Position numbers and translations under genes: made by a program. Source: Armatimonadota bacterium (GTDB taxonomy: Bacteria; Armatimonadota; Fimbriimonadia; Fimbriimonadales; Fimbriimonadaceae). Taken from it: a stretch of DNA of 51,009 nucleotides. Positions within the stretch are counted from its first letter, which is position 1, and each line of letters begins with the position of its first letter. The notes beneath the pieces were generated by a model. It saw nothing but the letters and a program-made list of their open reading frames with translations, made no database searches and had not been told where the DNA came from. The stretch spans positions 1 to 51,009 of the forward strand of contig JAKOXK010000012.1 in the NCBI GenBank assembly GCA_029781035.1. The letters run 5' to 3'. Below, piece by piece: positions 31,571-41,959 of this stretch.

Positions 31571-32914
31571 CTAGCCGAGCCCGATCAGTCTGCCCACTTC
31601 TCCAACCAGGTAGAAGCTCCCGGTCACGAGGATCAGCCCGGGCTCGGCGTCCAAGCAAGCGGTCAGGGCCGAGGCTATGTCCTGGTGGGTTTGTGACCGC
31701 AGGAACAGCCACCCGGCTTCGCTTTGGAGTTCTTCCGGTTGGCGGGTCCGCCTGAAGTCAATGGGAACAAAGTGCACCTCATCCGCGATGGTCGCAAGAG
31801 GCTCGTAGAAATCCGCAGCCACATGGCCCTCGAGCATGCCGGTCAGTAGAATGATCCGTGAAGGTTCTTCTGGTAAAGATTGTATTGATTGGACAAGAAT
31901 CCTGGCGGCATCTCCGTTGTGGGCACCGTCAAGCAAGACACGCCTGCCGTGAAACGCTGCCCACTGCATCCTTCCGGGAGCGCTAGCCTTGGCGACACCG
32001 TGTTTGACCCGTGACGGCACGCGGATCGCTCCAGCTGCCTCGCATGCCGCGATCGCGACCGCCATGTTGTGCGGTTGGGCGACACCTTGAATGCCAGGGC
32101 TGAGCCGCTCATAGCTGCCGCCTGGCGTCTCGACTCGGTATCCGTCCAGACCTCGTGCCAGCACGACGTCGCGACCGTAGATCCATGCCGGAGCCTGATT
32201 GATCTTGGCGATCGTTTCGACCGCTATCCTCGCCTCGTCTTCGAGGTCGCCCACGACAACTGGTTTGCCCTCCTTGACAATGCCAGCCTTCTCGACGGCG
32301 ATCTTGCCCAAGGTGTCCCCGAGAAGCTGCGTATGGTCCAGACCAATGCTGACCACGACGCTGGCTGCCGGAACGACGACATTCGTGGCGTCAAGACGCC
32401 CGCCTAGGCCGACCTCAAGCGCAACGTAATCGGCCAACTGTTCGGCCCAATACGCGAATCCCATCGCCGTCTTGAATTCAAATTCGGTCGGGCCGCCAAG
32501 CTCGGTACCCTCTAGAGTCTGCGCGACCGGCCAAAGATAGGCGACCATTCGCGCAAAGTCCGTCTCTGATATCAGGGAGTCTGGCGAGGGCTTTGGCAAC
32601 CTCAAGGTTGCGTCTGAATCAGTAACGAGCGACGGTTCATAGCCGAACTGTATCCGCTCGCGGACGTTGTACACGAACGGGCTGAATGTCGAACCGACCC
32701 TCCAGCCTTGCTCCCGCAAGATGCTCTGGACAAAAGCGGTGACGCTGCCTTTTCCGTTGGTGCCGGCGATGTGGATGTACTGAGGACCGCCTTGTGACCC
32801 GAGTTTGTCGGAGAGTCCAGCGAGCCGCAGGAACTCCTCCATCCGGTCCAGCCCCAGCCGCCAACCTCGATGCTCAAGGCTGGAAACTCGGTTGAGCGAC
32901 TCTTCGAACGTCAT
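31571..32914 (-). CDS. folC: Folylpolyglutamate synthase / dihydrofolate synthase
   Basis: 447 residues. Adds glutamate to folates and, in bifunctional forms, makes dihydrofolate from dihydropteroate. P-loop HIAGTNGKGSVTAFVQ at about 49-64; FSPFVYNVRERIQ, the omega-loop region; LEVGLGGRLDATNVV with the Mg-binding Glu and Asp; SIGLDHTQLLGDTLGKIAVEKAGI with the catalytic His and the lysine to be carbamylated; LLDGAHNGDAARIL at the start of the C-terminal ligase domain. Length is typical. It starts 14 bp after the Tudor-like gene on the same strand, so the two form an operon. Confidence 0.95.
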   Translation of the reverse strand: MTFEESLNRVSSLEHRGWRLGLDRMEEFLRLAGLSDKLGSQGGPQYIHIAGTNGKGSVTAFVQSILREQGWRVGSTFSPFVYNVRERIQFGYEPSLVTDSDATLRLPKPSPDSLISETDFARMVAYLWPVAQTLEGTELGGPTEFEFKTAMGFAYWAEQLADYVALEVGLGGRLDATNVVVPAASVVVSIGLDHTQLLGDTLGKIAVEKAGIVKEGKPVVVGDLEDEARIAVETIAKINQAPAWIYGRDVVLARGLDGYRVETPGGSYERLSPGIQGVAQPHNMAVAIAACEAAGAIRVPSRVKHGVAKASAPGRMQWAAFHGRRVLLDGAHNGDAARILVQSIQSLPEEPSRIILLTGMLEGHVAADFYEPLATIADEVHFVPIDFRRTRQPEELQSEAGWLFLRSQTHQDIASALTACLDAEPGLILVTGSFYLVGEVGRLIGLG

Positions 32915-37161: not shown

Positions 37162-37272
37162 GCAACCTCAAGGTTGTTAATTGTGGCAATAGGCAACCCA
37201 GCAGTTGCATAAAATAGAGCCTGTGGGTCAATATGCAACAAGCCGGTTGCCAATGGAACTCTGCAACGTTGC
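37162..37272 (+). promoter_or_regulatory. Array of GCAAC/GTTGC dyads upstream of the ArsR-type regulator (operator candidate)
   Basis: GCAAC-N6-GTTGY occurs three times, at 37162-37177, 37193-37208 and 37235-37250, and a compact GCAACGTTGC lies at 37263-37272. The centres are 31, 42 and 25 bp apart; the first two spacings are close to whole helical turns. The second and third units form a larger dyad around 37221.5: GGCAACC (37192) and GTTGCATA (37204) mirror TATGCAAC (37232) and GGTTGCC (37245). The 16-bp dyad size suits a winged-helix dimer, so autoregulation by the gene at 37288 is likely. Confidence 0.6.
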
Positions 37273-37287
37273 TCAAGAAGGGATTCT

Positions 37288-37596
37288 GTGACGCAGGTCG
37301 TCTTCCATGCACTCGACGACGTGACGAGGCGGGAGCTCGTGTCGCGGCTGTCCCGAGAGGGGCCGTTGGCGATGGGCCATCTCACCGCCGGGCTCCGGAT
37401 GTCAAGACAGGCAGCGGCGAAACACGTCGCAGTACTGAAGGGGGCCGGGCTCGTCCGGTTGGTCCCCCGCGGTCGGGAATCCCTTTGTGTCCTCTGCCCC
37501 GAACCGTTCCGTGAAGTCGTCGAGTGGCTGGAACGGATCGGCGCAGACTGGGACGTCCGCCGTGCCGAGTTCAAAAGGCTGGTCGACGGACTCTGA
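37288..37596 (+). CDS. ArsR-family winged-helix transcriptional regulator
   Basis: 102 residues from GTG 37288; AGAAGGG lies 5 nt upstream. FHALDDVTRRELVSRLSREG is the standard ArsR opening, MGHLTAGLRMSRQAAAKHVAVLKGAGLV the helix-turn-helix, and RLVPRGRESLCVLCPEPF the beta-wing. No metal-binding ELCV-type Cys motif is present in the recognition helix; two Cys residues occur in the wing (LCVLC, about 68-71), so metal or redox sensing is possible but not shown. C-terminal WLERIGADWDVRRAEFKRLV is typical of the stand-alone HTH_20/SdpR-like branch that often precedes an SRPBCC gene; no such partner follows here. It is flanked by the operator array and the tRNA gene. Confidence 0.88.
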   Translation: MTQVVFHALDDVTRRELVSRLSREGPLAMGHLTAGLRMSRQAAAKHVAVLKGAGLVRLVPRGRESLCVLCPEPFREVVEWLERIGADWDVRRAEFKRLVDGL

Positions 37597-37612: not shown

Positions 37613-37618
37613 TACAAT
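37613..37618 (+). promoter_or_regulatory. -10-like TACAAT of the tRNA-Pro gene
   Basis: TACAAT lies 10 nt before the mature tRNA 5' end. This supports TACAAT as a genuine -10 sequence in this genome. Confidence 0.55.
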
Positions 37619-37628
37619 GCAGGCTTGT

Positions 37629-37705
37629 CGAGGCGTAGCTCAGCTTGGTAGAGCGCGTGCTTTGGGAGCACGAAGTCGCAGGTTCAAATCCTGTCGCCTC
37701 GACCA
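37629..37705 (+). tRNA. tRNA-Pro (anticodon TGG), CCA encoded
   Basis: Acceptor CGAGGCG pairs with CGCCTCG; D-arm GCTC/GAGC with loop AGCTTGGTA; anticodon stem CGTGC/GCACG with loop TTTGGGA giving TGG; T-arm GCAGG/CCTGT with loop TTCAAAT; discriminator A and genomic CCA. Total 77 nt, all arms complete. It reads all CCN codons partly and CCA/CCG fully. Confidence 0.97.
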
Positions 37706-40297: not shown

Positions 40298-41959
40298 ATG
40301 TTCGCGCCGCTAGCCGCTGCCTTGCTTTTGACCAACCCGATCCCGGCCAAGCGATGGGTGTACCTGATGACGAACCTACTGGTGGATGCCAATGTGGACA
40401 GCGCCTTGACCCTGGCCGAGCGGGCCAAGAAGGCTGGATACACCGGGATCGTTGTTTCCGACAGCAAGTTCTGCCGGTGGGACAGTGTCCCCGAACGTTA
40501 CTTGACGAATGTCAAGCGGTTCAGCAAGGGTGTGAAAGACGATGGGCTCGACTTGATCGTGGCCGTCGCGCCAATCGGCTACGCCAACGACCTCCTGTCG
40601 CGCGATCCAAACCTTGCCGAGGGGCTGCCGGTCTCTGACGCGCCCTTCGCCGCTCAACCAGACGGCACGCTGGTTCCCGTTGCCGATGACGCTGGATTCA
40701 AGAACGGTGGCTTCGAGTCGACCCAGGGAAGCTCACCCTCTGGATGGAGTTGGGTAGATGAACCGGGCAAGGTCTGCGTCCTGGACCATGACGTCATGGC
40801 CGAAGGGGCCACTTCACTCCGGATGGACGATGCAGGGGGCGGCAATGCCCGTGCGTGCCAGACCCTTAAGGTCGAGCCGTTTCGCTACTACCACGTGAGG
40901 CTCAGCGTCAAGACCGAGGACTTTGACGGGGTCGGTAACGCGCACGTTACGATCCTGGGCAAGTCAGGACAAGGCCTCCAGTATCGGTCGCTCCCGGTTC
41001 AGCGGACGATGGACTGGACACCGATCGACGTGACCTTCAACACCCTCGACAATCACGAAGTCAACTTCTATATCGGCGTCTGGGGCATGAAGGGCGGGCA
41101 CATCTGGTGGGACGATCTGCATCTAGAGCCCGGTGGCCTTGTCAATCTCGTCCGTCGCCCCGGGGCCCCGTTCATCGTCAAGAGTGCAGACGGAAAGACC
41201 ACCTATACAGAGGGAAAGGACTTCGACGGCGCGAAGGATCCGAAGATGGGCAACGCGGCTTGGCCCGGAGACTACGACGCCTGGCACACTCCGCCCCGGA
41301 TGTCGCTGCCGGCTGGTAGTCAGATCCATCATGGAGACCGAGTCCTCGTGTCCTATTGTCACACTGCGATGATTTACGATGGTCAGGTCACGTGCTGTCT
41401 GGGCGAGCCTGCGCTGTACGACATCATCCGCTGGCAGATTCAACAAGTCCACAAGTATATGCAACCTAGCGGTTACCTTTTGAGCCATGATGAGATCAGG
41501 GTCGGGGGATGGGACACGGGTTGTACAAAGGACGGAAGGACTCCCGGGCAGCTCTTGGCAGACAACGTGAAGAAGTGCGTCGCCATGGTCCGTGCCGAAG
41601 ATCCCGGAAAGATGATTTGTGTATGGTCTGATATGTTCGACCCTTATCACAACGCATCACCGGCGGGCAGTTACTACCTACTGAAGGGCCAGGGCCCTTG
41701 GAAGGACTCGTGGCTGGGGCTCGACGAAGACGTTGTGGTCCTTAATTGGAACATGCAGGAGGGCAAGCGGCAGCAATCCTTGAAGTTCTTCGACATGAGG
41801 GGTCAAAACCAGATCCTCGCGGGATACTACGACGGAGGCGGTACTCCCATCGACAAGTGGATGAAGGAAGCGGGTCGACCGTACGGGGTGATGTACACGA
41901 CGTGGCAGGGCCAGTACAAGGATCTCGAGCGGTTTGCGCACGACTGGGCCAAGCCGTGA
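40298..41959 (+). CDS. Secreted glycosidase-like TIM-barrel protein with inserted carbohydrate-binding module
   Basis: 553 residues. MFAPLAAALLLTNPIPA is a short signal-like start. Residues about 18-110 begin a (beta/alpha)8-type barrel (RWVYLMTNLLVDANV, AKKAGYTGIVVSDSKF, DGLDLIVAVAPIGY). About 130-280 is a jelly-roll like CBM4/9: NGGFESTQGSSPSGWSW at its start, YYHVRLSVKTEDFDG, and HIWWDDLHLEPG at its end. The barrel then resumes: PSGYLLSHDEIRVGGWDTGC offers a D-E pair reminiscent of GH20 active sites, then MICVWSDMFDP and VVVLNWNM. So the binding module seems inserted inside the catalytic domain. Substrate and exact GH family unknown. Monocistronic, divergent from the cyclase. Confidence 0.7.
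   Translation: MFAPLAAALLLTNPIPAKRWVYLMTNLLVDANVDSALTLAERAKKAGYTGIVVSDSKFCRWDSVPERYLTNVKRFSKGVKDDGLDLIVAVAPIGYANDLLSRDPNLAEGLPVSDAPFAAQPDGTLVPVADDAGFKNGGFESTQGSSPSGWSWVDEPGKVCVLDHDVMAEGATSLRMDDAGGGNARACQTLKVEPFRYYHVRLSVKTEDFDGVGNAHVTILGKSGQGLQYRSLPVQRTMDWTPIDVTFNTLDNHEVNFYIGVWGMKGGHIWWDDLHLEPGGLVNLVRRPGAPFIVKSADGKTTYTEGKDFDGAKDPKMGNAAWPGDYDAWHTPPRMSLPAGSQIHHGDRVLVSYCHTAMIYDGQVTCCLGEPALYDIIRWQIQQVHKYMQPSGYLLSHDEIRVGGWDTGCTKDGRTPGQLLADNVKKCVAMVRAEDPGKMICVWSDMFDPYHNASPAGSYYLLKGQGPWKDSWLGLDEDVVVLNWNMQEGKRQQSLKFFDMRGQNQILAGYYDGGGTPIDKWMKEAGRPYGVMYTTWQGQYKDLERFAHDWAKP

Follow-up and report, generated by a model that had tools for sequence, protein, structure and literature searches.

What do the GCAAC-N6-GTTGC dyads that crowd in front of a small ArsR-type gene do, and why are there so many of them? 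The window is the whole 51,009-nucleotide stretch analyzed here, from contig JAKOXK010000012.1 of an Armatimonadota bacterium, and the gene in question starts at position 37288. With a probability of about 0.84, we regard the array as the promoter-operator of this gene, through which an orphan ArsR regulator would repress its own expression. The case is built on sequence comparison.

The dyad array and its regulator gene

The features of the locus are listed below.
37162–37177: dyad A, GCAACCTCAAGGTTGT, one mismatch; weak distal putative operator site, 73 bp upstream of dyad C
37193–37208: dyad B, GCAACCCAGCAGTTGC, perfect; its 3' arm is part of the inferred −35 element
37205–37210, plus strand: inferred −35 element TTGCAT, overlapping dyad B; placed by alignment with relatives' promoters (TTGCAT, 17 nt, TATAAT, dyad)
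37229–37234, plus strand: inferred −10 element CAATAT, directly before dyad C; positioned as TATAAT or TAATAT in relatives, weak match to the consensus
37235–37250: dyad C, GCAACAAGCCGGTTGC, perfect; would cover the transcription start
37263–37272: compact dyad GCAACGTTGC, without the N6 spacer; probably not a canonical site
37276–37282, plus strand: Shine-Dalgarno-like AGAAGGG, 5 nt before the GTG, assigned by sequence
37288–37596, plus strand: arsR-type regulator gene, 102 amino acids, recognition helix MSRQAAAKHVAVL; no SRPBCC partner beside it

Three 16-bp dyads of the form GCAAC-N6-GTTGC lie upstream of the gene, with centers at 37169.5 (A), 37200.5 (B), and 37242.5 (C), giving center spacings of 31 bp (A to B) and 42 bp (B to C). 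These spacings and the coordinates of the three dyads and the compact element agree with the preliminary description. The super-dyad centered at 37221.5, which had also been reported, is present with 23-nt arms that are 74% complementary, but much of its symmetry is automatic because B and C are two copies of one palindrome. A cluster of at least three dyads (one mismatch or less) within 95 bp was found once in the real window and in none of 60 Markov-1 simulated windows. B and C also form the sole instance in the window of two identical perfect 5-N6-5 dyads (arms of any sequence) within 60 bp, and such pairs were absent from the 60 simulated windows.

The genome scan covered 3.42 Mb in 98 contigs; genome-wide counts and those in relatives come from six-frame or pattern searches, and positions are given among the matches listed. 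Eight perfect dyads were found, two in the array and the other six in or apparently in reading frames (among the matches listed), and the latter were rejected as regulon members. It had been anticipated that frequent occurrence at random sites would refute the interpretation. This applies in part to the loose motif (one mismatch or less), which is slightly enriched genome-wide with 153 matches vs 123 in the reversed control, but not to the cluster or the extended motif; therefore, significance rests with the cluster and not with the bare motif. For the extended motif ATGCAACN6GTTGCAT, dyads B and C rank first and second among the genome-wide matches listed. The weight matrix was built without the window's own sites because the clade described below was first found via homology to the window's gene. 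Scores equal to or above that of C are expected 0.2 times per genome in simulated sequence, and those equal to or above that of B 0.0 times. Against the sites of relatives, the scores are 6.7 for A (1.5th percentile), 26.5 for B (19th), and 20.7 for C (6th), and B and C have spacers of higher GC content than those of relatives.

The compact element GCAACGTTGC has four copies genome-wide, compared with a composition estimate of approximately four, and is present in none of the 44 operator regions of relatives that were scanned. It was therefore rejected as a fourth site, and we count three canonical sites.

The regulator gene begins with GTG, and its 102-codon frame is uninterrupted and retains the core residues A8, L9, R14, R20, L21, R40, Q41, L50, G62, R63, and W88. 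Its product passes the Pfam cut-offs for ArsR-type HTH domains (HTH_20, 30.4 bits vs 27; HTH_5, 23.2 bits vs 22) and misses that of the NCBIfam metalloregulator subfamily HTH_metalloreg (52.5 bits vs 55). SdpR-type autorepressors (NF033789) are likewise a small ArsR-type family and give a weak profile match; however, the score of 34.1 bits misses the cut-off of 100. Its same-genus homologue L017 shares 51% identity with it. Paired wing-strand cysteines are present in both proteins (CVLC; CVC) and are not a feature of the clade.

Dyads in related regulators

The first homologue search covered 81 genomes. The DNA immediately ahead of the homologous arsR genes mostly lacked sites until the scan reached the start of an SRPBCC-arsR operon; the dyad is located approximately 450–1000 bp upstream of arsR, ahead of the AHSA1/SRPBCC gene that heads the operon. 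A tree of 32 regulators places the members that carry dyads in one clade of 20 tips (support 98/90), and none of 500 label shuffles was as clustered. The dyad is present in 19 of these tips; the exception is L026, whose upstream DNA is cut by a contig end. The feature common to the clade, which is defined in the present analysis, is an [S/T]RQ recognition helix with R40-Q41 invariant in the 20 members. The window regulator belongs to this clade, keeps R40-Q41, and has the dyads in its promoter region.

A profile of the clade was then searched against 291 genomes of the phylum. Dyads with one mismatch or less occur within 1300 bp upstream of 45 of the 49 members found, 48 of which have enough upstream sequence; dyads downstream occur for one of the 49 and are possibly the operator of a second copy. 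Of the other four members, one is truncated at a contig end; the weight matrix finds sites for the remaining three, namely L105 (approximately 446 bp upstream), L095 (just beyond 1300 bp), and L078 (a pair 41 bp apart). Of 85 family genomes, 7 carry double perfect dyads, vs none for the reversed controls, with spacings of 41, 41, 41, 41, 42, 43, and 48 bp. Two proteobacterial plasmids carry the same arrangement: an Aminobacter plasmid, annotated with SRPBCC followed by arsR, has two perfect dyads 45 bp apart upstream, and a regulator left unannotated on a Sinorhizobium plasmid has two perfect dyads 41 bp apart upstream. The sampled regulators with other recognition helices outside the phylum have no dyad. 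An Embleya regulator with a TRQ helix has none in the 3.3 kb fetched; therefore, the link between helix and motif is not universal. In regulators with an SFAAIAKH helix (L036, about position 1463; L117, upstream of arsR), a related dyad, TCAAC-N6-GTTGA, lies just before arsR, which suggests that helix and dyad sequence co-vary between ArsR subfamilies.

The proposal that the dyads serve as the operator of the ArsR-type gene thus gains comparative support, as the motif tracks one ArsR clade and recurs at operon promoters. The same association, which spans the phylum and extends to proteobacterial plasmids, together with the simulations, leaves next to no room for a chance cluster or for structural RNA or DNA repeats unrelated to the regulator, a reading favored by the small excess of the loose motif over its control. 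An RNA element was rejected because no Rfam family except tRNA was found. A repeat element was also rejected; the 405-bp spacer is found nowhere else in the genus.

The gene order in relatives corresponds to the ArsR-COG3832 (AHSA1/Aha1) two-gene module, which Makarova et al. (2009) described as a strictly unique pair (PMC2701414). Relatives of the window gene pair with AHSA1/SRPBCC and have the operator in front, whereas the window arsR stands without an SRPBCC gene and is, relative to the account of the module in that paper, a small exception to the strict pairing. The sections of the paper on this pair name no operator motif (PMC2701414). Our search of largely open-access literature on the motif and on ArsR paired with SRPBCC/AHSA1 turned up no description of the operator. 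The array itself would be an ordinary repressor operator with an ordinary mechanism. Its interest lies in the operator motif that it predicts for the widespread ArsR-AHSA1 module, ATGCAAC-N6-GTTGCAT in one to three copies; the motif links regulator, [S/T]RQ helix, and promoter across a phylum and two proteobacterial plasmids, and the prediction is simple to test.

Promoter geometry and predicted autorepression

Two-dyad operators of relatives most often have a spacing of 41 bp (16 cases); values of 42, 43, 31, 47, 48, and 51 bp were seen as well. A −10-like hexamer, often TATAAT or TAATAT, lies immediately before most proximal dyads. Where the spacing is 41 bp, the 3' arm of the distal dyad is TTGCAT or similar and forms a −35 element 17 nt from the −10, and some single-dyad promoters have a TTGACA-like −35 instead. 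The spacer between the inferred elements of the window is 18 nt, and a strict sigma-70 promoter scan of the window operator found no promoter. The 31 and 42 bp spacings had been taken as evidence for cooperative binding on one face of the DNA. Because the 3' arm of the distal dyad coincides with the −35 and the proximal dyad abuts the −10, promoter geometry would explain spacings of 41–43 bp at least as well as cooperative phasing, and the additional values of 47, 48, and 51 bp in relatives do not all approximate an integral number of helical turns. Phasing on the helix may contribute to the constraint as well.

The number of sites is less unusual than it had seemed when four were counted. Operators in the family have one site in 19 cases, two in 24, and three in two, including the window; in these figures, the count for L069 takes in a doubtful two-mismatch site. 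L037 has three dyads at −75/−42/0 compared with −73/−42/0 in the window, and dyad A matches its distal third site; therefore, the site number is not unique to the window.

We propose the following mechanism for the window locus. A winged-helix ArsR dimer with the [S/T]RQ helix would bind each 16–20 bp dyad (ATGCAAC-N6-GTTGCAT). Dyad B overlaps the putative −35 TTGCAT, and dyad C would lie directly after the −10 and across the transcription start, so that dimers on B and C could shut out RNA polymerase and arsR would repress its own gene. Dyad A would act as a weak auxiliary site, bound more weakly. We infer binding and repression from the pattern across relatives and by analogy with known ArsR proteins, for example Rv2034 of Mycobacterium tuberculosis, an autorepressor that occupies a palindrome within its promoter (footprint −30 to +3) (PMC3338718). 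The predicted self-repression in the window through promoter palindromes resembles that system; in contrast, Rv2034 has one palindrome of a different sequence with a 4-bp spacer (CCGTAAGT-N4) (PMC3338718). A ligand or another signal presumably lifts the self-repression. Since the regulators of the ArsR-COG3832 module are reported, in the account of the module cited above, to be without known metal-binding motifs (PMC2701414), a metal signal should not be assumed.

Absent partner and neighboring genes

What distinguishes the window locus is that no AHSA1/SRPBCC gene, the partner in the ArsR-COG3832 module, is adjacent to its arsR. The AHSA1 search of the genome gave two matches: L048, which pairs with a different ArsR and has no dyad, and L049, which lacks dyads at up to one mismatch and has one two-mismatch match approximately 1 kb away. 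A profile of the operon-type SRPBCC found nothing convincing in the genome (E value 0.028), the assembly being 96% complete such that a copy could fall in a gap. We take the partner to have been lost rather than never present. As there is no SRPBCC partner, the operator directly abuts arsR. L038, a homologue outside the clade, has an SRQ helix and the gene order arsR-SRPBCC; here, too, a strong site (PWM score 35.5) immediately precedes arsR, and thus this arrangement is not unique to the window.

The missing partner raises the question of whether the locus is a relic, with operator and regulator drifting under relaxed selection so that the sites matter little. The operator may indeed be decaying, because A and C score low, the GC content of the B and C spacers is raised, CAATAT is a poor −10 in comparison with relatives, and the strict promoter scan was empty. 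However, the arsR frame with its core residues is intact and the arms of two dyads remain free of mismatches, and we consider a relic unlikely.

The regulator gene lies between an upstream esterase gene, encoded on the same strand, and a downstream tRNA-Pro (TGG) gene (37629–37705). In two same-genus genomes used for an empty-site comparison, the esterase gene is kept, and no common sequence or tRNA follows it. The sites could bind the regulator and chiefly serve another target, either read-through into tRNA-Pro, which begins 33 nt past the end of arsR with no terminator-like site between them, or the high-scoring dyad ATATGCAACCTAGCGGTTACCTTT at 41461–41476 (PWM score 22.9, above dyad C). We hold this to be highly improbable: tRNA-Pro has a TACAAT of its own at 37613–37618, the operators of relatives precede an SRPBCC-arsR operon, and the two regulator loci of relatives that were scanned (L017 and L037) have no tRNA. 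The dyad at 41461 lies within the reading frame 40298–41959 (..KYMQPSGYLL..) and is probably a coding coincidence; scores as high as its own almost never arise in simulated sequence.

A combination of these ideas, in which the partner was lost, the three-site operator was kept, and the regulator was rewired to stand alone, controlling itself and a new target (tRNA-Pro read-through or 41461), seems to us a long shot, somewhat less remote than service to another target as the chief role. If it were true, the locus would be an exception to a strictly paired module. Autorepression of arsR through the dyads remains our preferred reading. Elsewhere in the window, a perfect dyad, GCAACCTCAAGGTTGC at 32596–32611, is identical to dyad A at 15 of 16 bases and is located within an apparent folC-like frame on the minus strand.
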